A stretch of DNA of 64,000 nucleotides from Sphaerolaimus hirsutus (taxonomy: Eukaryota; Nematoda; Chromadorea; Monhysterida; Sphaerolaimidae). The stretch covers positions 22,349,208 through 22,413,207 of the forward strand of contig OZ038450.1 in the NCBI GenBank assembly GCA_964036195.1, given 5' to 3'. A model generated the notes under the pieces. It had not been told where the DNA came from and did not search any database. It saw only the letters and a program-made list of their open reading frames with translations. A program made the translations under genes and the position numbers. This document shows positions 11,603 through 54,400 of the stretch, in pieces; position 1 is the stretch's first letter, and each line of letters starts with the position of its first letter.

Positions 11603-13515
11603 ATGGGCAAAAAGAGCAAAGTGGGCAAACAGCGGCGCGACAGATTTTACCACCTAGCCAAAGAAACTGGCTACCGATCCAGGGCCGCCTTCAAACTGGT
11701 GCAGTTGAACCGCAAGTACGACTTTCTGCAGCGCGCCAAGGTGGTCGTGGATTTGTGCGCGGCGCCAGGCGGCTGGCTGCAAGTCGCCGCGCAGAATGCT
11801 CCCGTTGGCGCCGTGCTCGTGGGTCGGTTGTCCAGCGGGCTTTAGTGTTTGTGAGTGCGAAATTAGGTTTGTCGGATCGTTGTGTATGGTTAAAGTGGCG
11901 TGTTTCTTTGAGATGTGTCTCAGTTCCACCCCTCAAATGTGCAAGCTATCAGCGGTAATTTTTCTTGGGCTGCACACTGACGATTCTGTTTAGGTGGCAG
12001 TCCCTCACCCTGTAAACTGTCAAATTTTATGCAAAATTTCGCACAAATTTGTCAAATGTTAAAAGCAGCAAAAATCGTTTCTTTTTATTGACATGTCACC
12101 TGCACCTTTGACCCTTCTCTTTAAGTTTTTTATGGTGCGGGACTGTCCCCAGCCTGCTAAATCCCTCTCACGCAGTAACGATTCTACACACCCGATTTTG
12201 CAAATGCAAACACCTTCCCCACCCTTCACACTCCACCCCGTGCCGCCCTTGTCGCAGGCGTGGACTTGGCGACGATCCGGCCGTTGCCGAACGTGATCGC
12301 GCTGCAGGGCGACATCACCCTGGAGCAGACGGGCGCGGCCGTGCGCCGCCAGCTCAACGGGCTGCTGGCCGACTGCGTGCTGCACGACGGCGCGCCCAAC
12401 GTGGGCCAGGACTGGCTGCACGACGCATTCACCCAGGGTCGGTTCTGGGGTCACGCGCGGGTGTAGTTGACAAGCCTGGAAAGTGTCAAGTCAAGTGTAA
12501 AATGTCGTGTAGAATGTCAATCAAAACGAAAAGATTTTATTATTGAAATTTCGACACTTTGACAATTGACAAATTTTATGACGTTTGTCATGAAATTTGA
12601 CACTTTACATGGCTTGGGCGGGCACAAGGCCTAGTGAAATGTCAAATGTCATTTAAAGTTGAAAATTCCCTGTAAAATGGCAAACCGAGTTCTGTAACGC
12701 TGAAAAATGAATATGATGTTGGTACTTATGATGAGATAACACATTTTACGTGAAAAAATGTTCTGCGGACAGTTGTCAATTTGCAGTTTATCTATTTACA
12801 TGTGCAAAAACTCCCGATTTAAATTCAACGAACGATCATCAATTCTGAACTCCGCCCACATCGCGCAGCTCGCCTCACTCTATCCGCGCTCAAAATGGCA
12901 GTAGGCGTTCTCAAAAAGGGCGGCTGGTTCGTGACCAAGGTGTTCCGCTCCAAGGACTACCCGGCCCTGTTGCCCGTGTTCGGCAAGCTGTTCAACAAGG
13001 TGCACGTGACCAAGCCGGCCGCGTCCAGAAACGAGTCTGCGGAGATTTTTGTCGCCTGTCAGGGATTTCTGCGACCGGACAAAATCGACCCGCAATTGTT
13101 GGATGCCAAGGTCGTATTCAGGGATGAGCAGGAAGGGGAGAAACCGAAGTACGTGTGGGTTGTGTGTTGTCTATTGTCAGCTGTTACAGCTGCAACATCT
13201 GCAAAATTGTAAAAACTGTAAAATTGTCGGTGCATTGTATGCATTTTGTAAAATTGTATTTTGACTGTGACTATGATATATAAACATTTTGAGATCCCGC
13301 CCCAAAAGTTTGGATTTTTTATTTTGTGTCATTTTCTCCAAAATCCCCCCCCCCTCCCAAACAGACTCAGTCTACTGCAGCCAGAGTCGAAGAAACAGAA
13401 GAAAGTCAAGCCGCTGGGCTACGTGGAGGGGAAAACTCTGCTGTTCGAGCGACTGAACGCGTCCGATTTTATCCGCAGCGATCAATGCGTCGCGCTGCTC
13501 GCAGAGGCGAATCAG
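11603..13515 (+). CDS. FTSJ3: FTSJ3/SPB1-type rRNA 2'-O-methyltransferase, N-terminal part only
   Basis: Four exons join in frame: 11603-11822, 12258-12437, 12869-13148 and 13365-13515, 277 codons. The start MGKK...KVGK and the [18 protein letters not shown] block are typical of FTSJ3. The SAM-binding DLCAAPGGW motif, the catalytic Asp in DGAPNVG, the Lys in TKVFRS and the Glu in NESAEIF give the K-D-K-E set of FtsJ methyltransferases. Family members methylate pre-rRNA in the nucleolus. The fourth exon begins the next conserved region ([15 protein letters not shown]) and ends at a good donor (CAG/gtgtgg), but no further exon is found before the convergent gene ending at 14057. Human FTSJ3 is several times longer. 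An upstream in-frame ATG at 11564 would add 13 residues; 11603 matches the family start. Intron 1 (11823-12257) and intron 2 (12438-12868) carry TGTCAAATGTCATG-type repeats. Confidence 0.88.
12470..12680. repeat. TGTAAAATGTCATG-type repeat in FTSJ3 intron 2
   Basis: Inverted clusters of gtgtaaaatgtc and gacatttgaca-like motifs resemble the interior of the introner-like family seen at 35477-35753 and in intron 6 of the A2/B2/C2 genes. The ends are too eroded to define a TSD. Confidence 0.35.
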
Positions 13516-19400: not shown

Positions 19401-22174
19401 TTGCCATTTTCCAGGGCATTTTTACACGACTTTTGGCACTCCACTTGACATTTTACATTTCACATGACAATTTACAACGTCTGAGAGTGGCACCAGGATG
19501 TAGTAGCGCACGGCGACCATGCACAGGATGTAGTGCGCGGTGCACAGCGTGGCCACCGGCGAGCACAGCAGCGCCGTGGTGATGTGTCTGCGCGTGCGCT
19601 GCTGAATCATGATTGGTGTTTGATGTGTGGTGGATAAGTCTTTTAGATGCTTTCTTTTCCTCTGTTCACTTGTGCCACACACACTGAATGTCAACTGGTG
19701 ATGAGCGGATGTCCACTGGGCCGACTGGTTTTCATTGAGATTTTAGTTGATGGGTTGCCACAAAATTCCCACAAAAAATCCACTGCAAACTTGCAAACGA
19801 ACACGGGTTCAATGTTGCGCATGATGGTGCACCTGTCGAGGGTGTACTTGAATCTGTCGCTGCCCTGACCCGTCTCCACTTTTGTGTCGTGCATGTTGTC
19901 CAGTTCCCGCCTTTTTGGGATGTATTCTTGACCCAGCGACGCCAGTGTGACGCCAACTGGGTTTTTAGGGGGGGGGGTTTAATTGAGGTAGTTGTCTAGA
20001 ATAGGGTTGGGTAAAAATGGATTTTTTTGACAGTGCAGTGTGTTGAAAAACTTTGGGTTGTGTTGTCGTTTTTTTGGCCAGGAGGCCACACCAAATTGGG
20101 CTTTTATCACAGGTCATACCATCTTATCCCAAATCACGCTCAAAATTCCAAACCCACATATTTTTATCGCCAATGTGATCCACTTGAACAGAATGTACCC
20201 AGTGAGCACCATGCACACGCTGTTCACGGCTTCATTGAACGCGTAGGGCACCATTTTTTGCGCTACTTTTCCCAGTGGGCCGCTATATTTGGTGCTATTT
20301 TCCTTGCCGGGCATGAATTTGCTGCACCAGGGCTGGCACACTGGCGCCAGGATCATTGCTGACAGGTCGCCGCTGCCGAATAGGTTCTGGATGCTGTTGA
20401 TGGACACCATTATCATCTGATGAGGGGGGTGTTTTTTACTACTGCTGAGGTTGGATGTAAACAAATTATGTCATTGGCCCGGTTATTTGAAAAAGAAAAT
20501 ATTTTTTTTATAAAAACAATATTTAAAAAAATCTATATTTTTACCATCATAACACGCACCTGGACAAACACGAGACCGGTGGCAATCATTCTGTTTTTGT
20601 TGGTCGCCCTGCGGCCGCACATTTTGACGCCCAAATGCAGAGTGATGGCTATTATGCAAGCGACGCTGCCGACTATGCCGCGTGCTGCGAAAGTTAAAAT
20701 TATTGACGCCGCGGAATTGTTTACCGTCAATAAACTCGGATTTTGGTGAACTCATAAATCGGATTTGATCCCATTTGAGTTTACCGGAATGAGGTGTCTG
20801 TTGACGAAGATTACGTAATTTCGGAAACTGATAAATACGTTTTAGGTTTTGGGGACGCATGACTATTTTTCGAACCTCGCGCTGTCACTTTCTGCTGTGC
20901 GCCGAATGGAACTCCCGCTAGGGCTACATCGTCCAATGTCTGCGTTTGTGGGGTGTCTAAATTTAAGAGTTATATGGTTTAGGGCAGGGGTTTAGTTGGG
21001 GGGGGGGGGGTTACCCCCCAAATCCGCCAGCTATCTATCTATCCCGGAGGCTCGCTCAGCTATCTATCTATCCCGGAGGCAAATTTTTTGCCTACTATCC
21101 CCTAACCCCCCCCCCCAAATCGTCCAGCTATCTATCTATCTAGAGCGATTTTTGAAAAATTTTCGCTCAAAATCGCTAATTTTCGTACCTTTTTATAGTT
21201 TTTCACCTCCAAAATCTCTAGTTCATGTTCATTATAGCCTATTTTGGCTATATATGTGCTTTTATAAGTTCTTTCAATATCGATACTTGATTCAATATCG
21301 ATACTTGATTCAATATCGATACTTGATTCAATAGCGATACTTGATTCAATATCGATACTTGATTCAATATCGATACTTGATTCAATATCGATACTTGATT
21401 CAATAGCGATACTTGATTCAATATCGATACTTGATTCAATATCGATACTTGATTCAATATCGATACTTGATTCAATATCGATACTTGATTCAATATCGAT
21501 ACTTGATTCAATATCGATACTTGATTCAATATCGATACTTGATTCAATATCGATACTTGATTCAATATCGATAATCGTAGAACAGATTTTCAGTTGACAG
21601 CCCACCAACAGTCAACCAAACAGTGTGTACAGCGCAAAAAAAACCCTCCCACCCTACCCCCACCCTACCACTTGGGACAGGTACCACGAGTTAGCGGCGA
21701 GCATGATGCACGACGCTGAAGTCAGCGCGCTGCTCATCACCGACGTGCACAGGTGCGCCGCGTGCGGCAACAGCGGCATCGTGTTGAACTGAGTCAGACT
21801 GCGTGGATGGTGCATGTTCCCAATGGAAATGCTTGTCAGTTGACTTGAGTAGGCATTCAGCAGCTTTCTTTATACTTGCGGAATTGGTGCCACTTCCAGA
21901 CCCTGTAAAATGTCATGCAAAGTGTCTAAAGTCGTGTAAATTTCCATGTAAAGTGGCAAGCTTGTCACTTTACAGACCATTTGTTCTTTAGTTTTCACAC
22001 TTTGCATGACATTTTACAGTGCATTTCACAGGGTCCAGAAGTGTCCCCAAATATCTGCCTGACTTACCACCAAGGCGTGAGCGTGAATAAGCCATTGTTC
22101 CACGTGCAAAATGCTGCCGCGGCGCCCACAAGACCGCATGTCCTCCGCGACATTCCCAAAACTTTATTCTGCAT
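16428..22174 (-). CDS. A2: nine-exon multi-pass membrane protein, cluster copy A
   Basis: Minus-strand exons: 22174-22068 (ATG), 21798-21669, 20684-20560, 20416-20158, 19956-19799, 19601-19494, 19117-18965, 17071-16906, 16603-16428 (stop), about 460 residues. Exons 4-9 and 1-2 join in phase; the exon 2-3 junction does not close, so a short exon or another splice site is missing there. Hydrophobic segments lie in exons 2, 3, 4, 6, 7 and 8; exon 5 encodes a hydrophilic loop (IPKRRELDN...) and exon 9 a polar tail ending TEKTK. I do not recognise the family; it could be a receptor, channel or transporter. Close copies are B2 and C2; D shares exons 7-9. Introns hold hAT-like elements at 16702, 17400 and 18507, nested introner-like sequence in intron 6 and a minisatellite in intron 2. 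Exon 7 reads TAG directly before its first codon, so it depends on the acceptor CCCTAG/ACTGAC. Confidence 0.68.
16702..16835. mobile_element. Short hAT-like MITE in intron 8 of A2 (ancestral insertion)
   Basis: Ends TAGCGTTGGGAA and TTTCCAACCCTA; flanks gtctcgac and gtctcgtc match at 7 of 8. The same insertion is in B2 (26221-26341) and C2 (51778-51898), so it predates the triplication. The interior repeats ACCCGAACCC/ACCCGATACCC. Confidence 0.65.
17400..18307. mobile_element. 908-bp hAT-like element with GGCGCC arrays at both ends (A2 intron 7)
   Basis: Ends TAGTGATGGAA / TTCCATCACTA with a perfect 8-bp TSD gttgcttt (17392-17399 and 18308-18315). About 230 bp at each end consist of degenerate GGCGCCATGGCGCCCTTGGC-type palindromic arrays; the 430-bp centre (17630-18060) is AT-richer and has no recognisable gene. 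Open frames through the arrays are repeat artefacts. Confidence 0.78.
18507..18948. mobile_element. hAT-like element, family 1, copy 4 (A2 intron 7, beside the exon 7 donor)
   Basis: Ends CAGGGCCGTATCCAGG and CCTGGATACGTCCCTG; perfect 8-bp TSD ccacacca (18499-18506 and 18949-18956). Empty sites are present in B2 (near 27025) and C2 (near 53020). The insertion lies 16 bp inside the intron from the exon 7 splice donor. Confidence 0.87.
19118..19493 (-). repeat. Intron 6 of A2: introner-like element with a second one nested in it
   Basis: On the coding strand the intron begins GTGCCACTCTCAGACG and ends with a GCGAGTACCCCTAG-type end. An internal second element has its own CAGACCCTGTAA ends near 19200-19230 and 19365-19385. 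The interior is TGTCAAATGTCATG-like sequence. The C2 counterpart (53188-53380) is a single clean copy. Confidence 0.55.
20710..20920. repeat. MITE-like repeat (AAACTCATAAATCGGATTTG type) in A2 intron 2
   Basis: Closely similar sequence is at 30790-31040 and 57455-57720, including the CTCGCGCTGTCAC/CTCGCGTTGTCAC segment and the CGTCCAATGTCTGCGTTTGT segment. It is shared by all three copies of the cluster, so either an old insertion or ancestral intron sequence. Confidence 0.45.
20987..21600. repeat. CAGGGGT-type hAT-like element remnant with (TATC)n boxes and minisatellite
   Basis: The left part (CAGGGG..., G/C runs, repeated cagctatctatctatcccgg) matches the elements at 24387-24505 and 49597-50128. 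It passes into an 18-bp minisatellite. I could not find the right end or a TSD. Confidence 0.45.
21273..21573. repeat. 18-bp minisatellite, about 16.7 units of TTCAATATCGATACTTGA
   Basis: Nearly perfect head-to-tail array; two units carry TAGCGAT in place of TATCGAT, spaced five units apart, which suggests multi-unit amplification. It is open in two minus-strand frames only because the unit length is a multiple of three. It lies in intron 2 of A2 and is absent from B2 and C2. Confidence 0.9.
21880..22050. repeat. Introner-family repeat in intron 1 of A2
   Basis: Begins gtgccacttccagaccctg and ends caggtccagaagtg-like (acagggtccagaagtgtccc), with inverted TGTAAAATGTCATGCAAAG / CTTTGCATGACATTTTACA arms. 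This is the same family as 35477-35753. No clear TSD. Confidence 0.5.
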
Positions 22175-24623: not shown

Positions 24624-25178
24624 GGTTTGAGTGCCAGCAACACTGTGGGCAGCGCGGCCAGGGGCCAGTTCCGCAAATTGAGAAGTGCGACGTAAAATGG
24701 CAAATGCGAAATGCAAGGTGAGAAGTGAATTGAGAAGGAAATTGGCAAAAGCGGAGTTAAAAAATAAAAAAGTAATTTCTCTTCGCTTTTGCCATTTAAC
24801 TTCACAATTCACTTAGTTTTTGCAATTTCGCTTCGCATTTGCCATTTTACTTCTCACTTCGCAATTTGCGGAACTTGCCCCAGATACACCACACGGAAGG
24901 TGGTGTATCTTACAGAAGATACACCACACCAACTTACTTTTTCTTTTTTCTTTCTTGACGTCGCTTTTGCCAATTTACTTGCCGGATTTTCTTCTCAATT
25001 CACGTCGCATTTCCCATTTTATTTCTCACTTCTCATTTCGCGGAACTGGCACCAGGTGATGCAGCAAGGCGAAGCTGTTGTAGAGGGAAATGTCGAACAG
25101 CAGACTGATTGGGTGCGTCCAGAACTTGGCCACGCGCCAGATTATCACGCCGCTGTGAAATGCCACGAATAGTGCCGT
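24624..25178 (-). pseudogene. Exon 8-type fragment of a D-like paralogue, split by a TE
   Basis: Minus strand: from 25178 (acceptor CTCGCAG/ACG) the sequence encodes TALFVAFHSGVIIW... and continues to the LLHH segment, then is interrupted by a 389-bp insertion (24663-25051) and resumes with ALPTVLLALK. It is nearly identical to exon 8 of D (34969-35134). No other D-like exons are found nearby, so this is an isolated fragment. Confidence 0.6.
24663..25051. mobile_element. 389-bp element with GGCCAGTTCCGC ends inside the D-like exon fragment
   Basis: Ends GGCCAGTTCCGC and GCGGAACTGGCA; flanks ccagg on both sides (24658-24662 and 25052-25056), apparently a 5-bp duplication. The empty counterpart in D near 35010 reads gcggtcaggtggtgc once. 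The interior has inverted aagtgcgacgtaaaatggc-type arms. Confidence 0.6.
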
Positions 25179-25329
25179 CTGCGAGGCGATGTTTATAGAT
25201 TTTTTTCATGGAATGTACACCATTGTGATCTCGGCCCTCATTCTGACTACTGTTGCGGACGTAAAATTAAAAAAACACGAAACCTAGTCGAAAACCAGGT
25301 TATCCCATCCGCCCCCTCGCTCAACCTAC

Positions 25330-32654: not shown

Positions 32655-35600
32655 TTATCTTTCCTTCTTATCATCACCAATCAACGGTTTCGATACGCTC
32701 TCATCCGCCCCATCTATGTGCACTTCCTCAGTACTCTGCGCAGAGTGCATGTGCACTTTGCCGTGCTTTGCGCGCCTGCTGTGCATGTGCACTTTGCCGT
32801 GCTTTGCGCGCCCGCTGTGCATGTGCACTTTGCCGTGCTTTGCGCGCCCGCTGTGCATGTGCTCGGAGCGACTCGTCGAAGATTGCGTGCGCTCGTCCAT
32901 GAGCCGCTCGCGCTTGTAGTCGTGCACTGAAACATGCGCTATGAGTTTGTGCTGAAAACTGATGATTGGCGCAGGTACGGAGCAAAGCGCAATCCCCTCG
33001 CCGTTGATAATATCAATTCACCGCCAAATTTCAGGTTTAAATAAATTTAAGTAGAAATTGGTCTACCGTATTACCTCGAAATACCCCCAGGTGGTTTGTC
33101 ATTTCGCCAGCAAATTTTCAGGGGGGTTAATTCGAGGGGGTCTAATGTGCCCACACACACTAGTTTTCACCGTGACTTCGTGGGAAAACTGAATTTTTTT
33201 TCAAATGCAAATTAATGAACACGGGTGAATGATTTGATTTTATTTAAATTAGAATTTTAATTAATAAAAGTTAATATTTGAAAATTTCAAAACTAAAACA
33301 CATATAGCATACAATAAGAGTAAACTGGTGGACAATATAAATGGAAAATTCACAAAATAACATTTTAAAAATCACACAAGCAAGCGATCAGGCTGTCACT
33401 GAGTGTGAGGGTGCCCCAAAGTATATACTATATATAACCAAAGTGGCACCCCCTCAGGCCACCCTTGTTGCTGAAAATATTTTTTTTCCACTTTTTTCTG
33501 GTCAATATAAATGGAAAATCCATACAAATTTTTGTTCAGGCCAGAATTTGATTTATTTATAAAATGGGTTGGGGATGGTTTAGGCCACTGATTTTTTGGG
33601 ACATATGAGATGGTAACTTCCTGCAACTATTCCACCCCCTCACAACCGACGCAATCCTTACACCAAAATTTTGCTGAAGATCAAACCTGAAATATTTTTT
33701 TGAACAAAACATATATTGGAACTAATGTGTCTTACACAGCCCCAGGCTTATGATACAGCACATGGTGGCCAGGACTGCCTTCCTAAGTGTCATGAGCAAC
33801 ATGTGGCTGGTCCTGCACCACATTGTTGCACAAAGATTGCATTTATGGCGATCAGTGGAAATACCAGTGTTCAAAGACAGCATTTCCGTAAAAGCGTGAC
33901 CGGCCTCTGCAGCATCTGCATGCAAATCATTAAATGCTAGTGCCCATTGAATTCAGGCAACAATTATCTGTTAAACATATACCAGGGGACAACTGGAAAT
34001 GTGTCCTGTATTTTGTGGAAATGGGCCAGACAGATGAAGAGGTCATTCGCAGAAAGTGTAAATTTGTGGTTTTTGCAATCACAATCAAAATGTTTGCACT
34101 TATAAAGTTCTTAATATGTTTGAATGTCATGAAGTGGCTGATATCTGCAATTTAGGATGGATTTTTGTGAGGCAGCAGCAGTGTGGGGACAGCATTGGGT
34201 AAAAATCACCCTGCAACCTATGTGCGGCTCTGAGCGAGCCATTAGTGATTTTTTTTCCATCAAAAGACTGCCAGCACAAGCGTATCCAATGCTTGTGTTG
34301 GCAGCATGCCAAAAATGGCAGCGCGCTTTGCCGCAGCAATATTCTGTGTGGGATTCCAAAATTTTCCAATTATATTGGCCAGAAAAAAAATCGGAAAAAA
34401 TATATAGAAGGCTGTCACGGCTAACCAGGGGGGTGCTGGGGGGTGCCATTTGGGGACAATGTAAAGAAATGTTGGCCCCACATTCACACAAAATTTTAGC
34501 TAGATTGGGCTGATCATTTGCACATGAGAATATTTCGAAAATTTATGTAGTCAATTTTCCATTTAAATTGTCCACCAGTTTACGCTGAATGTCGCCATGT
34601 CGCCATTTCAGTTTTCACATCAGTCACGGTGAAAACTAGTGTGTGTAGGGCCATTATTTCGCCAGAAATTTTTTGAAATCCTACATACTCAGACGTAGAA
34701 AAATCTAACAATTACATGAACAGATGTTTATGTGTTTATATACGTATATAACATTATGCACGCATAAACCCTGCCCTAACGTCACTCAGTCATTCGTTTC
34801 AACGTGTGTTCAGCATCATACAGATCACAAACCGCAGTATTTGTCGTGTACATTCTATTTGCACACTATATGTGGGGGTATTTCGAGGGGGTGGTTTATT
34901 ATTTCCTCAGCAAAATGTTAGGGGGTATTTCGAGGGGGGGGGGTAATTCGAGGTAATACGATAGTTACCTGTGTGTTTGAGTGCCAGCAACACCGTGGGC
35001 AGCGCGGTCAGGTGGTGCAGCAAGGCGAAGCTGTCGTAGAGGGAAATGTCGAACAGCAGACTGATTGGGTGCGTCCAGAACTTGGCCACGCGCCAGATTA
35101 TCACGCCGCTGTGAAATGCCACGAATAGTGCCGTCTGCGAGGCGATGTTTATAGATTAAATTTTCATTTAAAGGAACACCATTCTGACTACTGCTGCGGA
35201 TGTGAATGTAAATAATGTACGTACGAAAGTCACATAAAATGGCGCGCTACAAAACAACTTAGGGTGGTGGTAATGGCGCCATTCTATCCCCAAAAGCGAT
35301 ATTCGATATTCGCCATCAATATTTATTTATCTTTTGCAATATTTTCACTATTCAAATGGACACGAAGAAGTGGTCAACATTGGACACAAAGTGGCGCATG
35401 TGCCCAACCAGAGCGACGGCGACCGCGGCGCCGGCCACTCTGCGCTTGAGGTTGGCCGAGCCCGTGAGCACCAGGGGGCACTCCCAGACCCTTTTAAAGA
35501 CCCTGTAAAATGCTATGTGTCATGTAAAAGACCCTGTAAAATGTCATGTGTTATGTAAAAAAACCTGTAAAGTGTCAAATGCCATGTAAAAGCCCCTGTA

Positions 35601-35924
35601 ATGTGTCATGTGTATCAAATATTTTGTTTTGGTATCCAAATCTTATGTTTTTGTATCCAAATATTATGTCAAAAGGTAAGATTTGGATAAATACACATAA
35701 CACATTACAGGGTTTTTACGGGACATTTGACACTTTACAGGGTCTGGGAGTAACACCAGGGTGGCCAGGGCCGCGCCGCTGCTCGCGACCACCGAGACGA
35801 CTGCCAGCAAAGTCCACAGGTCGATTAGGTCGGACGTGCCCACGCCCAGGTCCATGGCCACTTCCGCGTTGTTCTTGTCTGCAATGTCGCAATTCTTCGT
35901 GTTGCATTTCTCGCGGGTGGATTT
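32655..35924 (-). CDS. D: C-terminal exons of a divergent paralogue with an introner in exon 7
   Basis: Minus-strand exons: 7a 35924-35757, 7b 35480-35409, 8 35134-34969 (166 nt, as in A2/B2/C2), 9 32926-32655 (stop TAA). All join in phase. Exon 7a carries a Cys-containing segment (KCNTKNCD) then a TM segment; 7b continues the polar loop (GSANLKRRVAG); exon 8 has two hydrophobic segments around WRVAKFW; exon 9 encodes a hydrophilic tail with three 14-residue repeats (HMHSGRAKHGKV type) ending DDKKER. Exon 7 is one exon in the paralogues but is split here by a 277-bp element. Exons 1-6 are missing: upstream lies the Polinton. An in-frame TAG directly precedes exon 7a and is taken as the splice acceptor. 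The gene may be a 3' fragment left after insertion or duplication. Confidence 0.6.
33150..34650. mobile_element. 1.5-kb element with CACACACTAGTTTTCACCGT ends in intron 8 of D
   Basis: Terminal inverted repeat of about 25 bp (CACACACTAGTTTTCACCGT / ACGGTGAAAACTAGTGTGTG) plus a second inverted pair inside (GTAAACTGGTGGACAATATA near 33320 and its inverse near 34570). The ends resemble the foldback MITEs of this window, so it may be a longer relative. Frames on both strands have no recognised domain. No clean TSD. Confidence 0.55.
35477..35753 (-). mobile_element. 277-bp introner-like element splitting exon 7 of D
   Basis: Perfect 8-bp TSD caccaggg (35469-35476 and 35754-35761). Ends GGCACTCCCAGACCC and GGGTCTGGGAGTAA are inverted. 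On the coding strand a GT in the TSD gives the donor CACCCTG/GTGTTA and an AG in the element gives the acceptor CTGGGAG/TGCCCC, an intron of 276 bp (35756-35481). Splicing adds only TGCCCCCTG (three codons) and keeps the frame. A2, B2 and C2 have no intron at this position. The interior holds repeated CCCTGTAAAATGTCATGTG motifs. Confidence 0.8.
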
Positions 35925-35989
35925 CTATGTGGCAAAGCCGTTTCCGATATTCTTTTGCAAGTGGAAAAGCGTGAGCAGTCGGGTGACAA

Positions 35990-36103
35990 TCGAAACGTAA
36001 AATGCCATGCAAAGTGTCAAAAGTCATGTAAATTGCCTGTAAAATGGAAACAAGTTCGCCATTTTAGTTGGCATTTTTATTGACTTTTGACACATTGCAT
36101 GAC
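35990..36103. repeat. Introner-family remnant adjoining the Polinton
   Basis: Inverted gtaaaatgccatgcaaagtg / cattgcatgaca-like arms identify the introner family; only one end region is recognisable and the other may have been lost at the Polinton junction. Confidence 0.45.
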
Positions 36104-36214
36104 AGTAGTGAGTGCCTAGCACAAACAGCACACAAACTACACCCTTTTTTGAGAAATAGAACACACAAACCCATTTATAAAATTTTTTAAAATAATTTTT
36201 ACAAATATTACACA

Positions 36215-36329: not shown

Positions 36330-36360
36330 GCAAAGCTTCTTTCATATTCATTAAAACGCA

Positions 36361-39300
36361 ATGGCTGAACAAATGAACTACGAGCTCGTCGATAGCACAC
36401 CACCCGAGGACAATCAACTGGACACATCATCCGATGACGAGGAATTTGATGAAAACAAGATCAAATACGATGAACAGGATGCTGTAACTCTCAACCGACA
36501 TTACGAATATCTCAAGGACAACATAGCAGAGATAGAGCATTCTGAACCTGGTTGGAAAAATTTGTTTACTATTAAAGAACCTTGGCTGGAAAAAAATGGC
36601 AAATTTTACACAAACTATTATGTATATGACGTAGAGTTTTTACCAAAACTTGAAGATCAAGTTAATGATCCCATTACATTTTTAGAATACGTTCTGGGAA
36701 AATGCATCGAGAAAGTATATTTAGATTATTTTTCAGATAAACAAGCAGAAGAAAAACAAAGAATTTTTGTTGGAATAAAAGTCATGTCAAAAAGTTTTGA
36801 CAAAGGTTACATTTTATCAAAAATCACCCATTTACAAAATGTGTCTATAGCTTCGATTTTAAATAGAGTTGAAATGATTTTTCAATCAGCTGGTACGGAG
36901 GAAGACAATCTGTTAAATGGTTTTTCTGTAAATATCACAACTGTAGAGAGAAATGAGGTAGTAGCTAAAGGATTTGACACCAGGACGAGATTATTACCAG
37001 ATATACAAAGTAGAATACGTTTTCACAGAAAAGCTATTTATAATCCGCCAAATTTAATATCAACACCCGATCAGTGCCTCGCAACATGCTTATTCATGGG
37101 AAAACAATATTTGATGTCAACAATCACAAAAAAACCAAATTTATTCAAGAGATATACTAGAAAACATAGAAAAGGTCAATATGTTACGTTAGAACGAGAT
37201 GTTGCCAGATTCGTAGAATTTGCATCAATATCATTCAATTACGATCGACAATGCAAAGATCTCTACAAAAATGTAAAAATTCTTTTAACGGCTTTACAAA
37301 AATTTCCACCAAAACACAAACAAATGATATACGAATGTAGAGTTTGGTCAATATTAGATGGTGGTATTGAGCTTGTTTTTCAGAGCACACCCAATTGTAA
37401 GAAAAAAGCATGCATTGATTTATTATATGATGATGAGAAGAAACATGTTGTCTTGGTAAAATCTATTAGCACATTAGCAAACTGTTATAGAGTAACAGAC
37501 TGTTGCAACAAAATTATTTTCAATAAACATTCCACATGCAAGTGTTCGCAATCGTCCTGTCCAATGTGTTTTGCAAAAAATATTTGCCCTATAGAAAAAG
37601 GTAAGAAAACCATAATTTGCCAAAGATGTAATAGGTCATTCTACAATAAAACTTGTTATGAAAACCACTTGGTAAACATTTATCCACATAAAAGTAATTT
37701 ACAAGTTACAAAAATAATAGATAGTACTGATGAATCTGATAACGAATGTTGTTTAAATGGACAAGAACTTGAAAAATTGAATGAAGCCTCATGCAAACCA
37801 TTAACGGTCTGCCAATGTCTTCATTTCTGTTCTATATGCAAAAAGAAAATCATTCTAAGCGAGAATCATGAAAATTGCGGTTTCACCAAATGCCAATACT
37901 GCCAAACATATGTACCCATAGAAAAGACTTTTAGAGCGCATCAATTTGAATGTTTTTTCCAGAAACCGATACCGTATGAAACTAAATACCCAGGAAAACC
38001 CTTTCAAATTATTTTTTACGACACAGAAACGTTTCAAAAACCGATTGTAGAGAAGAAAAATAAAATATTTGGAGACACCCCATCCACATCTACAGCAGGA
38101 AGTGATCATGTTTATCGTAAGATTCATGCAACTTACGCAGTCTATTGTATGAAAAGATGTAATAATTGTATATTAGAAAACCAGCCATGCTCGCAATGTG
38201 AATCATGTACTAGCTTCTTTTATGGGTTAGACGCCATAACCCAATTTTATTATTTTTTAATGGATTATAAGAAACATAACAATTTGACTGTGATTGCACA
38301 TAACCTGAGCTTTGACCTATGCGAAATTTTAGCAATTTTTTTAAAAAATGGGAAAATACCAAATTTAATTCTGTCGAATGGTAGGAGAATTTTTTACATG
38401 CGTCTCAATAGTAAAATAAGCTTTTTATGTTCCCTCAAATATTTCCCTATGAGTTTGGAACAAGTGGGCAAAGCTTTTAATTGTACAAAACTTAAAGGTA
38501 ATTTTCCACACGCCATTGTCACCGAACACAATTTAAATAGCACATATGGGGCTTTACCAGAACCAAAGTTTTTTCACGTGGACAGTATGAAGACAGATCA
38601 AAGACTAGAGTTTTTGGAATGGTATGAAAATAATAAATACAATGAGTTTAATATAAAAAATGAATGTTACCAGTATATCAAAGCTGACACGATGGTTTTA
38701 GAAGAGGCTTTTGTGAAATTTACAAAAGAAATTTTTTACACTTTTAATATAATACCTCACCTCAATTCAAAAAGCTTGAGTAGCCTCGCAAATTTTATAT
38801 GGAAAAGTCAACACGTCGACACATCAGTAATATTACACACACCACCCCGCAACAATTTCAATGTTGCCGATATGCAAAGTAAGTGGGCATTGAAGAGTAT
38901 CATAGCTATTGCTAGGTATTATGATAACAAATATATTCAATATTCTAGATCTCAAGAAGGAGAGAAAACAATTTCGTGTTACGATCCGGATGTTGGAAAT
39001 ATCAGAAATTTCAAGATAGACTGCGTTGTATACAAAGATGAAAATAAAACAGAAATAGACTTTTTACGCGAGTATTTGGGATGCAGCGTGCATGGCTGTA
39101 TCCATTGTTTCCCAAATAGGCTTGCAAAAATGAGACAATCGCATTTATCTCATGGAGAAAATTATAAAAACACTCTACACAGAATAAATTTGATTGAAAA
39201 GAATACGGGACTGCGCGTGGAAATGTGGTGGGAATGCGATATACAAAGGCTCAAAAGGGATAGCATAAGATTTGCAAAAATTTACAATGCATGCAAGGTG

Positions 39301-40845
39301 AGAGAACCATTGGATATGAGATCGGCGTACTACGGTGGTCGCACCGAGGTCTTTAGTTGTTTCGCATCAACTAACCCTGGGGGTAATTTATTTGAGGAAA
39401 ATATGCCGTCGGATTTTGACCCCGAGTACACTATCAATGCCGTTGATATATGCAGCCAATACCCAGCGACTATGAAAAAATTCCCCATGCCAATTAAAGC
39501 ACCTAGAGTTTTGACGCAAGAAGAGTTGGATTTTCTAACCGGTTATTCAAAAAAACCATTACCTTTCGCAGCAGGCGTCCTACAAGTTGAAATTTTACCA
39601 CCAAAAGATTTATTGCTACCATGCTTACCGATGAAAATAGATCAATTTTCCGTATACGCATTATGTTACACTTGCGCAAAAAAATACGCATCTGGTAAGG
39701 AAAAGTTACCTCCACCGGATGGCACTTACAAATGTACCTGCACTAACAAACAAAGAAAAATGTTTGGAACTTGGTCAGTCAATTGTTTAAATATGGCCCT
39801 CGAAAGAAATTACCAAATTATTAGAGCATACGAAGCTCTTATTTTTGACAATGTCTCCGTATGGTCACCGGAATATCCGGAGGAAGGGGTATTCAGTACA
39901 TTTATAGATAAAATATTTGCTCTAAAAGTTATGTCGGCTAAACATAATTTTAAGAATGAGCGAGAAAAGTTACAATTTTGTCAAAAATTCAATGATATAG
40001 AGAAAAGCCAGCTCGACCCAGATAAATTCCAAGAAAACCCGGCCAAAAGTAAAGTGTGTAAATTACTACTCAACAGTGCATATGGGCAATTAGGAATGAA
40101 TAGCCAGAAATCAAAGTACGTCTTTATCAAAGACCCAAACAAATTTATGACAACAGTTTTTTCACCAATGAATGAAATTGAAGAAATTTTCATCATGAAT
40201 GAGAATATAGCTAGAGTGAAGCTCAAAACTACTAATGAATTTGTGCAGAATTCCCCAAATTCATGTCTCATATTAGCTCTTTATATCACTAGCTACGCGA
40301 GATCCATGCTGCAAAGACTGCTAGAACAATTTCACTACAACCAATTGTTATATACAGACACTGATTCCTGTTATTACATTCATGATGCAAATCAAGGTGC
40401 AGAGCACATGCACCCGGACCTGAATCCGGGCATTCTAGGGGGTTTAGACAGCGACATCCCTGAAGACGACTTTATATCAGAATTTACAGCCATAGCCAAT
40501 AAGTTTTACTCACTCACGTATAGGAAAAAGGTCGATCCAAAAAATGCATATACGGTACTAAAGGCAAAAGGAGTACGTATGACAAACCATAACAAGTATT
40601 TGTTACAAAGTAACGAACTTAAAAAGCAGCTGGTATCATATTTTTCACCTTTAATTTTCTCCAACCATTATATAAATACCGTAAATCTGCAGTTTAGAAA
40701 CACACCCAGTCTGCTATCAATCACTACGGATAATATTGTTAAGAGAGTACATTTCCAACTAAAAAAAAGATATCATTATTGGCAAGACAACAAATCTTGG
40801 TCAGTACCCTGGGGATATTCTGGCAAAAAACCACACAATGGATGA
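36361..40845 (+). CDS. Polinton protein-primed family B DNA polymerase (pPolB)
   Basis: 1494 residues. The N-terminal third has no catalytic motif but has Cys/His clusters around residues 390-540 that look like zinc-binding knots. The 3'-5' exonuclease domain starts with ExoI (YDTET, D554/E556). The polymerase domain has motif A (DICSQYP, D1029), motif B (KLLLNSAYG, K1234) and motif C (YTDTDS, D1333/D1335). The large N-terminal region is usual for Polintons. By family knowledge it replicates the linear element with a protein primer and carries TPR regions between motifs A and B. The C-terminal residues overlap the ATPase start by 8 nt (ATGGATGA), which suggests compact viral-type organisation. 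No stop or frameshift is seen. Confidence 0.95.
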   Translation: MAEQMNYELVDSTPPEDNQLDTSSDDEEFDENKIKYDEQDAVTLNRHYEYLKDNIAEIEHSEPGWKNLFTIKEPWLEKNGKFYTNYYVYDVEFLPKLEDQVNDPITFLEYVLGKCIEKVYLDYFSDKQAEEKQRIFVGIKVMSKSFDKGYILSKITHLQNVSIASILNRVEMIFQSAGTEEDNLLNGFSVNITTVERNEVVAKGFDTRTRLLPDIQSRIRFHRKAIYNPPNLISTPDQCLATCLFMGKQYLMSTITKKPNLFKRYTRKHRKGQYVTLERDVARFVEFASISFNYDRQCKDLYKNVKILLTALQKFPPKHKQMIYECRVWSILDGGIELVFQSTPNCKKKACIDLLYDDEKKHVVLVKSISTLANCYRVTDCCNKIIFNKHSTCKCSQSSCPMCFAKNICPIEKGKKTIICQRCNRSFYNKTCYENHLVNIYPHKSNLQVTKIIDSTDESDNECCLNGQELEKLNEASCKPLTVCQCLHFCSICKKKIILSENHENCGFTKCQYCQTYVPIEKTFRAHQFECFFQKPIPYETKYPGKPFQIIFYDTETFQKPIVEKKNKIFGDTPSTSTAGSDHVYRKIHATYAVYCMKRCNNCILENQPCSQCESCTSFFYGLDAITQFYYFLMDYKKHNNLTVIAHNLSFDLCEILAIFLKNGKIPNLILSNGRRIFYMRLNSKISFLCSLKYFPMSLEQVGKAFNCTKLKGNFPHAIVTEHNLNSTYGALPEPKFFHVDSMKTDQRLEFLEWYENNKYNEFNIKNECYQYIKADTMVLEEAFVKFTKEIFYTFNIIPHLNSKSLSSLANFIWKSQHVDTSVILHTPPRNNFNVADMQSKWALKSIIAIARYYDNKYIQYSRSQEGEKTISCYDPDVGNIRNFKIDCVVYKDENKTEIDFLREYLGCSVHGCIHCFPNRLAKMRQSHLSHGENYKNTLHRINLIEKNTGLRVEMWWECDIQRLKRDSIRFAKIYNACKVREPLDMRSAYYGGRTEVFSCFASTNPGGNLFEENMPSDFDPEYTINAVDICSQYPATMKKFPMPIKAPRVLTQEELDFLTGYSKKPLPFAAGVLQVEILPPKDLLLPCLPMKIDQFSVYALCYTCAKKYASGKEKLPPPDGTYKCTCTNKQRKMFGTWSVNCLNMALERNYQIIRAYEALIFDNVSVWSPEYPEEGVFSTFIDKIFALKVMSAKHNFKNEREKLQFCQKFNDIEKSQLDPDKFQENPAKSKVCKLLLNSAYGQLGMNSQKSKYVFIKDPNKFMTTVFSPMNEIEEIFIMNENIARVKLKTTNEFVQNSPNSCLILALYITSYARSMLQRLLEQFHYNQLLYTDTDSCYYIHDANQGAEHMHPDLNPGILGGLDSDIPEDDFISEFTAIANKFYSLTYRKKVDPKNAYTVLKAKGVRMTNHNKYLLQSNELKKQLVSYFSPLIFSNHYINTVNLQFRNTPSLLSITTDNIVKRVHFQLKKRYHYWQDNKSWSVPWGYSGKKPHNG

Positions 40846-41593
40846 AGAATACTTTACAGAAAAAGATGTTCAATTAGCCGAATACAGTCAGTCCTATCTT
40901 ATTATAGGTCCCAGTAAATGCGGCAAAAGTTCGTGGTCATTAAAATTTTTACAATACGCATTGAGAGGATGGCTAAATCTGGATCAAATACCCGACAAAG
41001 TTCTAATATGTTCAGGCAGTAATCAACACAATCACCCCGTATATCAACAATTACAAGCAGAGTTCCCAGGCAAGGTCGAAATACTGGAACGCAACAAAGT
41101 ACCCGCGTTGTCAGCACTGGAAGACAGCGAGCTGGCGCAAATTGTTATTTATGATGATATGCAACTATTAATGCCGCCGTGGTATACCAGCCGCCTAATT
41201 ACAAATTCTGTTAGTCATTCAAAAAAATTGCTTGTACTTATACAAATTCACGACCCTTATTACAACAGTTCTCTTCGCATTTTACGTAGATGTTGCACAT
41301 TCTTGGTCCTATTTAAGTACCCAACAGAACAAGTTGTGAATTCATTAGCTTCCAGCTGGTTCGGGCAAGGTGAACAAAAGCGCAAATTTTTACTCGCATA
41401 TAGCGACGCCGTACATATACCCTATGGTTATTTAATAGTGTCTTTCCAGCACGTTTCTAACCCAATTTTCCAAGCTAGAACTAATATATTTAATGAAAAT
41501 AACGGAGACCAAATTCTGTATAATCTTTCTTCTACCTTTAACAACAATTCAACACCTAATCTGGTGACAGTTACCGATCAACGCACCCATTAA
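40838..41593 (+). CDS. Polinton FtsK/HerA-type packaging ATPase
   Basis: 251 residues. Walker A is GPSKCGKSS (residues 24-32, catalytic Lys 30); Walker B is VIYDDM (Asp 106/107). Size and motif spacing fit the A32-like genome-packaging ATPases of Polintons, adintoviruses and related double-jelly-roll viruses. By analogy it pumps DNA into the capsid. It starts inside the last codons of the polymerase gene and ends 2 nt before the next gene's start. Confidence 0.9.
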   Translation: MDEEYFTEKDVQLAEYSQSYLIIGPSKCGKSSWSLKFLQYALRGWLNLDQIPDKVLICSGSNQHNHPVYQQLQAEFPGKVEILERNKVPALSALEDSELAQIVIYDDMQLLMPPWYTSRLITNSVSHSKKLLVLIQIHDPYYNSSLRILRRCCTFLVLFKYPTEQVVNSLASSWFGQGEQKRKFLLAYSDAVHIPYGYLIVSFQHVSNPIFQARTNIFNENNGDQILYNLSSTFNNNSTPNLVTVTDQRTH

Positions 41594-41595
41594 TA

Positions 41596-41934
41596 ATGAA
41601 TAAAATAACCAGAGTACAAAAGTGCACCAAAAAATTGCATAAAGCGGCAAACATTCAAAGTGATAAAAAACTTCGAACCTATTTAAGTACTGCGAACAAG
41701 CAAGCAATTTCAGCCATTTTGGATATAGCTTTTAATATCAACTATAATAGCAGTATAAGAAAGTTACTTAACAGGTCAACAAACCGCTCACTAGATTATT
41801 TTACACCAATAATAAATCTACTATCAAATTGTAAATCCGCCAAAGGCGGCAGAAAACTTTTGATAAAGCACGCATCAATGGTATTCATCAGATTATTGAT
41901 CAAATCAGTAGCTTCCAAGATATTTAACATTTGA
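41596..41934 (+). CDS. Small basic helical protein, Polinton-associated, unknown function
   Basis: 112 residues, rich in Lys, Asn, Ser and Ile, with a predicted helical middle and a GGRKLLIKHASM segment near residue 83, followed by a hydrophobic C-terminus. Many Polintons have a small protein with a KRRKLL-GG motif near a hydrophobic tail at this place; the similarity here is only in layout. Candidate roles are a minor virion or membrane-active protein. I do not recognise a domain. Confidence 0.7.
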   Translation: MNKITRVQKCTKKLHKAANIQSDKKLRTYLSTANKQAISAILDIAFNINYNSSIRKLLNRSTNRSLDYFTPIINLLSNCKSAKGGRKLLIKHASMVFIRLLIKSVASKIFNI

Positions 41935-41941
41935 TAAAACC

Positions 41942-42958
41942 ATGGACAATCAACATCGATCTAATATAAGCGTAAAAGATTTTAAATATGTATTAAAAAA
42001 ATTTGTAGATGAACAAGGAGGAAAAGAACAGTTTCAAAAACTCATAGACGAAATACTAAAGAGCAAACAATTGACTGATGCGCAAAAATATCACCTACTT
42101 TTGGCAGCTAGAAATAAATTATCTTTAATATTGAATAACGTTAATAGTGCAGACCCCAAAAATTTACCCTTAAAAATACCATCAAACACAGTAGATCTTA
42201 GTGGTTTTGCACACTCCTTCACGCAACCCCCCAAATCAACCCCTCCCAATACTCCCCCTCCAAATTCTATCGCATCACCCGAACCTAAACATACTACCAG
42301 CCACGATACACCCAATCAAAGTCAATCTTCATTTTTCCCTGCTGAACTGTATCCAGAAGTTCAAAGACCATCATCATCATCCAAAGCAGCCACACCCAAA
42401 AATACCCCCCAACGAGAAAGCGCCGAGGTATCAGCCAACCCAAAGCGGCTGAATTTCCGACAACAACCGCAAGTGGAAAATGATGATGACGTGGACAGTG
42501 ACAGTGAGGATGATGAAGATGACGATGAAGATACCCCACCTAGATTTTTGAAAAAAGGAACACCAAAACTTCATCTTAAAGATAGCGACCCACCTATATT
42601 GATAGATAAAATGAAGGAAACACATAGAAGATTTCTGCATAGAGCGTGGGTAGATAATAAAAACCAAATCATTGACCATGGTGGAAAAGCAATCGTCAAT
42701 AATTCCAATTACTCAGATATTGTCAGATACTTGGCTCAAGTTACTTTAAAAAAACTAGGTGAAAGAGATTTTAATCGATCATTTGACCAACCACCGGGAT
42801 TCAATGAATTTTGGTACCACATAAACACGCTCCGCCAACATACTCGTGCGGATCACAGACAAAAATTAGCTGACCTCGTGGGCAAGGGTAAAAAAAGAAG
42901 GAAAAATAAACGCAAGTCAAGAAGAGCGCCATTTCACTGGCTTCAAAATAATTGGTAG
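41942..42958 (+). CDS. Pro-rich and acidic Polinton protein of unknown function
   Basis: 338 residues in three parts. Residues 1-75 are Lys-rich and helical. Residues 80-210 are low complexity: Pro/Ser/Thr-rich, then an Asp/Glu run around 187-200. Residues 215-320 look folded (TPKLHLKDSDP, then a WYHINTLRQ segment), and a Lys/Arg-rich tail ends in HWLQNNW. It sits between the small basic protein and the integrase and fits the position of a PX-type protein. Known Polinton proteins of this kind are uncharacterised; nuclear targeting by the basic tail is possible. Confidence 0.75.
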   Translation: MDNQHRSNISVKDFKYVLKKFVDEQGGKEQFQKLIDEILKSKQLTDAQKYHLLLAARNKLSLILNNVNSADPKNLPLKIPSNTVDLSGFAHSFTQPPKSTPPNTPPPNSIASPEPKHTTSHDTPNQSQSSFFPAELYPEVQRPSSSSKAATPKNTPQRESAEVSANPKRLNFRQQPQVENDDDVDSDSEDDEDDDEDTPPRFLKKGTPKLHLKDSDPPILIDKMKETHRRFLHRAWVDNKNQIIDHGGKAIVNNSNYSDIVRYLAQVTLKKLGERDFNRSFDQPPGFNEFWYHINTLRQHTRADHRQKLADLVGKGKKRRKNKRKSRRAPFHWLQNNW

Positions 42959-42960
42959 TG

Positions 42961-44013
42961 ATGACCAATAAGAAAAAGAAAGAAGCTCTATTAAAATACC
43001 TGTGGTATGGGAAATATAAAAAAGGAAAAATAACTGCAAAAAAAATCACCCAGGGGCTATTTTCCACAGTTCAAGCCCTCTACAAGGAGGCTCGTAAATA
43101 TGAGCAAGGTATAACGCAAGATTTTGTTAGGGAATGGTTAAAAAAGCAAGCTGGATATATTTTAACTAAACAAACAAAAAGATCAAAAAGAAACACGAGA
43201 CCCGTCATCAGCACGGGTATTTACGACTGTTTGAGTATAGATTTGGCATTTCTAGGACCACCAAAGACAAATTATGGGAACACAGCTGTGCTCTTAGCGG
43301 TCGATACCTTTTCGGATATGATTCATTTCCGAATATGTAAAACAAAGGCAGCACCCCACGTGACCAAAAAATTTGAAGAAATTCTTCGTGAAATTCAAGC
43401 CAGGGGTGGAAGCGTTGAGACGGTATTTTGCGATTTTGCTGCAGAATTTTTAAGCAAGGAATTTACTCATTTTTTATCAAATGAAAGAATAACTTTAACA
43501 CCCTTAGCCAGCTACCAAAAAAATTCACCAGTTGAGAAAGTAATCTCTACTATTCGTCTAAAATTGGCTCGATTTTACGCAACTACAAAACATAAAAGAT
43601 ATTATTTTGCTTTGAAATCCATTGTCGATGCTATAAATAGGACACCGCGTAAATATTTGGGTGACAAAGCACCAATTCAGTTAACTATTTTTGACGACCG
43701 TGAAATCTTCAAAAAGAGATTTCTACCAAAACTCGAACGAGGCTCTCTGAAAAACATCCCCATAAAAAAACGACCAAAGGTTAAATTCTCCATAAATGAC
43801 CCCGTAAGAGCTCGCATCCACAAAACTTTTGCAAAATCTACCGATCAGAAATTTTCTTCAAACATTTACTACATTGCAAAAATAAACAATAATTTTTGGC
43901 CATATACATATTACATTTCACAAGAGAAAAACGCATCAGACCCCAAAATTTTACCCAAAGTTTATTACGCAGAGGATTTGGTAAATGTTGAGAAAGACGC
44001 GCAAAATGAATAA
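42961..44013 (+). CDS. Polinton retroviral-like (DDE) integrase
   Basis: About 350 residues from the ATG at 42961; an upstream in-frame TTG at 42952 is less likely. The catalytic core has Asp 94 (SIDLAFLG), Asp 158 (FCDFAAEF) and Glu 192 (NSPVEK), a D-x33-E spacing typical of rve integrases. The C-terminal 90 residues (INDPVRARIH...VYYAEDLV) fit an SH3-like DNA-binding domain. By family knowledge it inserts the linear element with a 6-bp target duplication. The N-terminal part is Lys-rich. The stop overlaps the start of the next gene. Confidence 0.93.
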   Translation: MTNKKKKEALLKYLWYGKYKKGKITAKKITQGLFSTVQALYKEARKYEQGITQDFVREWLKKQAGYILTKQTKRSKRNTRPVISTGIYDCLSIDLAFLGPPKTNYGNTAVLLAVDTFSDMIHFRICKTKAAPHVTKKFEEILREIQARGGSVETVFCDFAAEFLSKEFTHFLSNERITLTPLASYQKNSPVEKVISTIRLKLARFYATTKHKRYYFALKSIVDAINRTPRKYLGDKAPIQLTIFDDREIFKKRFLPKLERGSLKNIPIKKRPKVKFSINDPVRARIHKTFAKSTDQKFSSNIYYIAKINNNFWPYTYYISQEKNASDPKILPKVYYAEDLVNVEKDAQNE

Positions 44014-45628: not shown

Positions 45629-45631
45629 CAA

Positions 45632-46105: not shown

Positions 46106-46159
46106 TTAAACCCTTCTTCTTCAAACTGAACTGCCCGGACGGATAATACGTAGTAATCC

Positions 46160-47652: not shown

Positions 47653-47654
47653 TA

Positions 47655-51493: not shown

Positions 51494-54400
51494 TCATTTT
51501 GTTTTCTCTCAAGACTGGGTTGACTGGTCAGATTTCGTCTCTCCAGTCGATTTCGAAGTTCCCGTCGCACTGTGCGAGTCGATTTTTATCAACTCGCTCT
51601 CGTTTGTTTCGTTCCTCGGCGGCTGGTCGTCGAAGTTTATATTCGTATCGACCACCAAGTTCACGTTGTTGTTCTTGTCCGAGCCTTTGAGTTTTTTTTT
51701 AAATTTGCACCTTTTTAAAAATAAGTTTTAATCCCAAGTTGGGTGTTTTCACCCTCAAGTCGATTCTGGGTCTTGACTAGGGTTGGGAATCCGCTCCGAC
51801 CCGAACCCGCACATTTTTTGCAACCGAAACCCGATACCCGACCCGAACTTTTTTGGAACCGATACCCGAACCGCAACTTTTTGACATTTCCAACCCTAGT
51901 CTCGTCTCCCCAATCCCTAAAAGCCCCCCCTTTTTCAAATCCACATAAATGTGAGCAAGGATGTATCCAGGGGGGGTGGGCGGGGGGGGGCTGCAGCCCC
52001 CCCTTCCCGGGGTGAGACCAAAAAAGTCGCGGAAAATGCGACTTTCCCCATATAATTTTTGATGTTTCTGAAAAATTTTGCGCGCATGCGCGCAATTTCT
52101 TCCCCATGCATTGTATTTTAAGCGGATCGTTCCGTTAAAACCAATATCCTTGGAAATCAACACATTTTTGCGACTTTTTGCTGTATATGTATGCATAATT
52201 ACATACATATAAAGCGGTTCCCGGCGCTGGCGCCAACGCCAACAGCGCCATGGCGTGGCGCCTATGTATGGCGCTAGCGCCAAAACGCCTTTTTGTACCT
52301 ATATCGTGAAAAATTTCAAGGGGGGGGGGGGGGCTGAGCCCCCCCCGTTCGCCGGCCCCCGTAAACAAGCAGCCCCCCCCGCTCAAAAATCCTGGATACG
52401 TCCCTGAATGTGAGCAACTCACAGGCTTGCTCCCAAGCTTCCACTACCGAGGGCACGTTCACTAGTGTCAGTATGAGAACGGCCGTGTGGTGCATGAAAA
52501 AGTCATTCAGTAGTTCGGGCAAGTCGTCGCTGAATTTTACCACTCGCCATATCATGGCTGCCAGGTTGAGCACCAGACTGAGCGCCACCTGCGTGTGGGT
52601 TTAAGTTGCGTCAAGTGTCAAGTTGCCGCAATGATTCAACTTTAGCTTGGATGGTTGTGTGTTGATGCTATGTAGAAGGGCCATGGCTTGTCTAAAGTGG
52701 CACTTTTTGGTGGCCACCAGCACACCGAAGAATGGATATTGTCTGACTTGGCACTTTGCCACCACTTTGCCTCCACGAACTTTCCACGATGAAGTTCACT
52801 ATACTAAAGCATCCTGGTTTATTATTACAGCCTTGAGTGCATAAGTTATGATGGACAAGTTGATGGAAAAACCCCCACCATATTCAATCTCCATGTATAA
52901 ATTTTTGCGCTTTGAAAAAAAGGCTGGCTGCCGTATTTCCACGATGGCACTTTGCCAAGATCCTGGCTGCAGCACCGCCACCGTTTCCCGACCATGACAC
53001 ACTGCAACAGCAAAAGCGCCACACCATCACCAACCAGCCCCGCAGCCAGCCCAGCGGCCGCCACTCTCAGCGTGTGGTTGTCCCTGCCGCTCATGATGGC
53101 GCAGCCGCACCACGAGCCCAGCACGGCCACCGTGATGAAGATAATCAGCAGCGCGTCGACACTGCCGCCCGGCAGGTAGTTGTCGTTCTGGGGGCACTCG
53201 CAAAACCTGTGAAATGCCATGTAAAGTGTCAAATGTCATGTAAAGTGTCAAAAGTCATGTAAAATGCCCTGGAAAATGGCAAACTTGTTTACCACTTTCC
53301 AGGGCATTTTACATGAATTTCGACACTCCACTTGACATTTTACATTTCACATGGCATTTTACAGGGTCTGAGAGTGGCACCAGGATGTAGTAGCGCACGG
53401 CGACCATGCACAGGATGTAGTGCGCGGTGCACAGCGTGGCCACCGGCGAGCACAGCAGCGCCGTGGTGATGTGTCTGCGCGTGCGCTGCTGAATCACGAT
53501 TGGTGTTTGATGTGTGGTGGATAAGGCTTTTTAGATGATTTCATTCTTCTCTGCTCATTTTTATAGTTAAAAAAGGAAAACACACCATTCCAAAAATGAG
53601 AGATTTTTTGGCGCAGTAGCTACCTATATGTGTGCATAATCACATATTTTTTATAGTTGAATGTCATAAAATTCCCACAAAAAAGACACTCCAAAATTTA
53701 AAAACGAACACGGGTTCAATGTTGCGCATGATGGTGCACCTGTCGAGGGTGTACTTGAACCTGTCGCTGCCCTGACCCGTCTCCACCTTCGTGTCGTGCA
53801 TGTTGTCCAGTTCCCGTCTTTTTGGGATGTATTCTTGACCCAGCGATGCCAGTGTGACGCCGACTGGGTTTTTTAGGGGGGTGGGTTAATTGAGATCGTA
53901 GTCTAGGATATGTGTTGACGCGTTATTGTGTATATTTAGGTCTAGTCAAAATTTGTGATCTGAGTTTTGCGCCACTGCAAACTGGAAACTACAATACAGG
54001 GGTGGGCATCTTCAGTTACCGCTGGAAAAACGCGATAGCTTGAGCTACGGTTGAGCTATCACAGTGAAATTTTAACACAATAGAGTAGACTCCATAGGAC
54101 ACCTATTCTGAAGTTTGCAACCCAAACGGCCACATTTTGGGTGAGTAGTGGAACACACCGTTTTTAGTGTAATTTTGTGACTAGGCGTCACCCATAGGAT
54201 AAATCGAGGGTGGCATTTGAGGGGGGGGGGGTCACCGGTCTTTGGTGTTGTCCCATTCTGTCGTACATTGGCCGATTTGGATGCCCTTTGAGTATGTTGG
54301 GGTTTGGGGTCGGGGCTACAACCAAATTCTTTGTTTTTCTCGAAAAGTCCCCCAGTCCTGAGATAACGGGGGTCAAGTCACAAAATTACACTAAAAACTG

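Follow-up and report, generated by a model that had tools for sequence, protein, structure and literature searches.

The origin of new introns has long been debated, and introners are a leading answer to it. Introners have been found in 175 of 3,325 genomes and in only two groups of animals (Gozashti et al. 2022, PMC9860276). As that survey describes them in general, they are transposon-like and exonic, with inverted ends, target duplications, splice sites at or near the ends, and many similar copies, and the family that we describe here shares these features, its splice sites being predicted ones. The introners in the survey were defined on annotated introns, in part with RNA-seq, whereas the present family is known from genomic DNA alone. 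Within the survey's account of Aureococcus, the introners bring both of their splice sites with them and lengthen the protein by a constant number of codons, as the present family would; they differ in having an 8-bp duplication and 12 added nucleotides, against the 3-bp CWG and the 9 nucleotides here. Its account of Symbiodinium gives introners with inverted ends and with the 3' splice site in the element, again as proposed here; there, however, a 4-bp duplication supplies the 5' site, whereas the present family has GT as the first two bases of the element itself, beside the duplicated CWG.

A different kind of relative is NuwaI, of the PHIS superfamily, which occurs mainly in animals and duplicates the same 5'-CWG-3' target (PMC4482050); the part of that account concerned with NuwaI makes no mention of introns. 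In a limited literature search, we found no paper joining introners with CWG-duplicating NuwaI transposons. Introners are already known; the present family is, on the best reading, a large CWG-targeting one in an animal. With such a family in a chromosome-scale genome, with many near-consensus copies and well-known host genes, the birth of introns becomes directly testable, including the choice of splice sites, the cost of added codons, and the selection that improves a raw intron.

An interrupted exon in gene D

The window (the whole stretch of 64,000 nucleotides that was analyzed, from the nematode Sphaerolaimus hirsutus) holds, at 14982–58421 on the minus strand, an orphan family of genes with multiple membrane spans, laid out as tandem repeats A, B, and C. 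A composite peptide of C2 had no match at E≤10 among 5.8 billion proteins, and Pfam gave no match over its curated cut-off for composites of C1, C2, D, and the MARRTEF gene (the last combined from pieces of B3 and A3). A Polinton/Maverick-like element (36355–48260, plus strand) lies between exon 7 of D and the first exon of the MARRTEF gene. It has a DNA polymerase B frame of the protein-primed type (Pfam DNA_pol_B_2), a match to an rve integrase that falls under the cut-off, and, judged by eye, a likely packaging ATPase.

In the minus-strand gene D, the open coding exon 7 is interrupted by an insertion with inverted ends (Table 1). A sequence-only reading had said as much, and the exon is indeed open on both sides of the insertion. 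That reading had also given the element 277 bp, a perfect 8-bp target duplication, and a GT taken from the duplication, and in these particulars it needs correction. Measured from the family ends, the element has 282 bp (35475–35756); the duplication has 3 bp and reads CTG on the strand of the gene, CWG being all that recurs across the family; and the GT is the first two bases of the element itself. Eight identical bases, CACCAGGG, are present on either side; the matches beyond CTG arise where the ends of the element itself adjoin flanks that resemble them, and from chance. The RNA of the element forms a long hairpin (−112.5 kcal/mol against a shuffle mean of −59, z = −10.7).

Read unspliced, exon 7 contains four stops, and without the element, it is open and in frame. 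Removal from GT to AG would join ...ALATL to CPL and then to VLTG..., in frame, with TGC CCC CTG added, and on the sequence the proposal of in-frame splicing between the GT and an AG in the element, with three codons gained, holds up. The D donor, GTGTTA, matches a strong site at the GT and the preceding G and nowhere else. Because D is an orphan and other transposons have entered the exons of its relatives, the gene may be decaying.

Was the homologous exon continuous in A2, B2, and C2, as had been claimed? By eye, a likely counterpart, which stands in the same place ahead of a related exon 8 and has a similar hydrophobic pattern, is uninterrupted at D's site; tblastn with D exon 7 found no homologous exon in A2, B2, or C2, and the A2 exon 7 is cut by another transposon (18528–18948). 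The latter, with ends like CAGGGACGTATCCAGG ... CCTGGATACGGCCCTG, also occurs in this gene family at 51963–52406 and at 15449–15886, where it splits an A3 exon with an apparent 8-bp duplication, TAGGCAAC. A2, B2, and C2 each have a copy of the family under study ahead of the counterpart exon, where it forms the intron or part of it, at a site that differs from D's.

Searching the window with nhmmer gave eight family stretches (the B2 pieces counted as one) plus a weaker one, and all fall in genes as modeled here on unannotated DNA. One host, FTSJ3, encodes a product whose best match among solved structures is an FTSJ3 chain. The weaker stretch overlaps an element in exon 8 of B3. Between B3 and D, 25053–25228 and 35009–35187 are 94% identical, and CTG occurs twice around the B3 element and once in the empty site of D. 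The B3 element is a second MITE type, starting GTGCC and, by eye, without an AG near its right end, for which reason we do not claim it as an introner; it may be a sister family without a 3' splice site.

Table 1. Features of the gene D insertion and of its relatives in the window
Feature	Position	Strand	Remarks
Inserted element	35475..35756	-	282 bp; boundaries from family ends; hairpin-forming
Element termini	GT 35756-35755 (5'); TGCCCC 35480-35475 (3')	-	
Target duplication CTG, upstream copy	35757..35759	-	Family duplicates CWG
Target duplication CTG, downstream copy	35472..35474	-	
D exon 7, upstream part	35757..35924	-	Open frame; acceptor placed by eye
D exon 7, downstream part	35388..35480	-	Includes the TGCCCC that splicing would leave; open frame; donor placed by eye
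Proposed intron	35481..35756	-	GT 35756-35755 to AG 35482-35481; frame would be kept, adding CPL
D exon 8	34970..35136	-	Counterpart, without interruption, of the B3 exon 25053-25228
Related but distinct element, 391 bp	24662..25052	-	Starts GTGCCAGTTCC; in B3 exon 8; CTG both sides; weak nhmmer match 24632-24875, E 1.4e-5
Diverged family copy in intron before D exon 7	35983..36111	-	nhmmer with family copies, E down to 7e-16
C2 copy, whole intron before counterpart exon	53188..53380	-	GT at 53380; right triplet CAG 53190-53188
B2 copy, same intron as C2	27194..28259	-	Interrupted by other repeats
A2 copies, same intron as C2	19118..19493	-	Nested; right triplet TAG; broken by other repeats
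Family copy within longer A1 intron (intron 1)	21886..22046	-	nhmmer; follows GGTAAGT donor
Family copy within FTSJ3 intron 1	11987..12150	+	nhmmer E 5e-5
Family copies within FTSJ3 intron 2	12443..12752	+	nhmmer E down to 1.6e-7

The family across the genome

A family copy, starting with GT and set in its CWG target, reads CWG, then GTGCCACTCCCAGACCC ... GGGTCTGGGAGTGCCCC, then CWG again. The right-end motif GGCACTCCCAGACCC has 1650 exact matches in the 348-Mb genome (828 + 822), and its reversed control has none; CAGGTGCCANTCCCAGACCC has 1907 and CCWGGTGCCACTCCCAGACCC 619, each with 0 for the control. In the window, the end motif was matched six times at up to two mismatches, where 0.06 is expected; in IMG/VR, it had 0 matches. 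These matches are not due to chance.

To look at individual copies, we took 138 loci, some overlapping, around the matches listed for the first two contigs in positional order, a sample that for this reason is not random over the genome. Elements were kept if they had both ends, with at most five mismatches per end and six together; overlaps were dropped, and duplicated regions were collapsed. Two groups of adjoining or duplicated loci (L056/L057 and L053–L055) have near-identical elements and flanks, pointing to recent segmental duplication. Filtering left 117 elements of 98–475 bp, their ends uniform up to the CWG (the splice boundaries are predicted), and 114 had enough flank to be used, the other three being dropped. 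GT stands at the start in 111 of the 114; the right end has AG in 88, AC in 20, AT in 4, and AA in 2.

How long is the duplication? In 61 copies, the two flanks agree at the three CWG positions in 84, 69, and 90% and farther out in 15–33%; the next positions beyond CWG agree in 72 and 49%, one side there being the element's own base. We put the duplication at 3 bp because, in the 45 copies not picked by the CCWGG pattern, what the two flanks share is CWG. With a clean CWG on both sides (29 copies, likewise not picked by CCWGG), the middle base is the same in 23. A 5-bp CCWGG duplication was considered and rejected, since on one side its outer C and G belong to the element itself; among the 45, the outer C is on the flank in 26 and the outer G in 22.

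Orientation, frame, and host genes

Since CWG is its own reverse complement, insertion should have no preferred orientation. Likeness to coding sequence was judged by a codon score, for which 804 codons from the window served as the training set. Of the 114 empty sites, 41 are coding-like when read in the sense of the element and 5 when read in antisense (p = 4e-8); with a background of 4.7% coding-like per strand at 3000 control places, sense alone is enriched. The bias is present in loci found by the right-end pattern (15 vs. 1 of 43) and by the left-end pattern (26 vs. 4 of 71). When right flanks were shuffled among copies, the sense count averaged 24 and reached at most 33, against the 41 observed; part of the sense signal, to judge from that mean, is merely that of exonic flanks. 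With the two flanks scored separately, the frame was the same on both in 29 of 34 sense cases (p = 6e-10) and in 8 of 23 antisense cases. A test free of the codon score was weaker: open frames of at least 70 codons occurred in 63 vs. 55 of 107 (p = 0.018).

None of the 41 coding-sense copies could be read through unspliced. For 36 of them, GT and AG at the ends offer a solution that is in frame and free of stops (both ways in 18, by the internal AG only, adding 9 nt, in 14, and by the right-hand AG only, adding nothing, in 4), and for 5 there is none. Those five have AC or AT for the internal AG and a right side without CAG; at CTG or CGG sites, copies of the AC and AT types offered no simple way of splicing GT to AG in frame when their options were examined. 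The AC-type copies share the sense bias, with 8 coding in sense, so that the AG alone is not sufficient to explain the bias. The loci L018, L017, L027, L039, L052, and L102 are AC- or AT-type copies in coding sequence without a simple in-frame exit, and they perhaps use a non-standard 3' splice site or are broken alleles.

Which AG would be used depends on the flanking triplets. In copies flanked by CTG, such as that in D, an internal GGGAG is the only option, and copies flanked by CAG could be excised exactly by the right-hand AG; use of TTTTACAG, farther inside the element, would by our count put the frame out by one base. Splicing to the internal AG would give A2 a stop (TAC CCC TAG), and the right-hand TAG keeps the frame; B2 and C2 have CAG at the position of that TAG. 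Where the two triplets of a copy differ, CTG is on the left and CAG on the right in 14 copies and the reverse in 3 (p = 0.013), and among coding copies the counts are 7 and 0 (p = 0.016). If raw introns improve, this skew is a concrete and countable trace of it.

What are the host genes? Pfam found 12 families, with 14 member matches (E≤0.001), among 48 joined peptides that score best in sense: OSCP1 and CHGN twice each, and once each lipase, E1 dehydrogenase, carnitine acyltransferase, DNA primase large subunit, cullin, KxDL, 7tm_1, peroxidase, Mak10, and COMM. Not all of these matches cross the junction, that to 7tm_1 being confined to one side. Among 13 peptides scoring best in antisense there was one match, to TGS. 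Compared with solved structures, the joined peptides of PRP8 (junction IKTEDP/DLPAFY), peroxidase (GGCDGA/RVRFKPE), and lipase (TRP/VIFLQHG) align without a gap at the junction, and that of BCKDHA aligns with one single-residue gap, four residues beyond it. In PRP8 and BCKDHA, the copies interrupt conserved single exons that stay open. The two OSCP1 copies split ILEQRL/RAQN and KLYDL/MTMAC; the second, of AC type, scores 4.9, just under the threshold, and is outside the 41. The antisense copy with the TGS match (L087) has an empty site in a conserved domain of a protein that we take to be DRG-like; both inverted ends contain an inner GTAAAA, which might act as the donor there.

The sequence-only reading had proposed that spliceosomal introns can arise from this element family in this species, and orientation, reading frame, and insertions in conserved proteins strongly support that proposal, in which the splicing is predicted. 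It had looked to copies lying only between genes or within longer introns as evidence to the contrary; we find 41 of 114 in coding-like sequence in the sense orientation, the one in which the element's GT could be used for splicing, along with several window copies in longer introns. At the rate of the right-end loci (15 of 43), the 1650 right ends would correspond to several hundred introns, a figure good to an order of magnitude because the sample covers two contigs.

How such introns might be made, and other readings

We think it very probable, from the arrangement of ends, flanks, and frames, that the family is a short, palindromic, MITE-like, non-autonomous DNA transposon acting as an introner. 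The element inserts at CWG and duplicates those three bases, and since it begins with GT, the insertion yields CAG/GT or CTG/GT, resembling a 5' splice site; at the right end, most copies have an AG directly ahead of a terminal TGCCCC. Were the exon transcribed with the GT end upstream, the spliceosome would remove the element. Exit by the internal AG would add 9 nt (TGCCCC and CWG), always in frame, and exit by the AG of a right-hand CAG would add nothing; in D, with CTG on both sides, the internal AG would be expected, with Cys-Pro-Leu gained. Selection would then remove copies that cannot be spliced, leaving behind the bias in orientation and frame.

Could these instead be ordinary MITEs that land in genes and are never spliced, the coding copies being recent harmful alleles or lying in pseudogenes? 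The relatives of D are disrupted by other transposons, and many family copies lie in longer introns or in non-coding DNA (73 of the 114 are not coding-sense), all of which would fit. Such insertions into a self-complementary target should, however, show no orientation, yet the coding copies stand at 41 against 5, and the exons of PRP8 and BCKDHA that hold copies are conserved and remain open; we regard this account as unlikely. Still less credence goes to the suggestion that the elements merely sit inside older introns, whose edges they reach in the apparent exon hits. The copies in FTSJ3 introns 1 and 2 and in A1 intron 1 do fit that description, but the coding cases are open and in phase up to the CWG on both sides, and the host proteins align across the join.

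The eight identical bases around the D element could suggest a hAT-like transposon with an 8-bp duplication, within the 5–8 bp that the account in PMC4482050 gives for hAT elements. Against this, only three positions recur on both flanks in the 61 copies compared, and exon 8 of B3, set against that of D, shows a 3-bp CTG duplication for the related element, so that we give a hAT origin almost no chance. The CWG duplication suggests instead that the ancestry of the introner-like family is likely PHIS/NuwaI.

A fuller account leaves us evenly divided between belief and doubt. It holds that a NuwaI-like CWG family, whose terminal GT offers a ready 5' splice site, has made several hundred introns in an animal outside the known introner groups, one of them inside PRP8, the core protein of the spliceosome itself, and that selection moves CTG sites toward CAG, since a CAG on the right allows the element to be excised exactly.

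Apart from these elements, TGA is read as Trp in the mitochondrial COX1, and Ser is the best reading of its AGA codons, which occupy positions where serine is the norm; a tunicate host was rejected on this ground. Among the 120 matches listed for COX1, the named ones that could be placed are insects at 64–67%, and no named relative exceeds 67%. For ND1, the named matches are mostly gastropods (44–49%), with two flatworms (46 and 49%) and one nematode (47%), which taken by itself would hint at an invertebrate, perhaps a spiralian. The mitochondrial contig has 14,754 bp.
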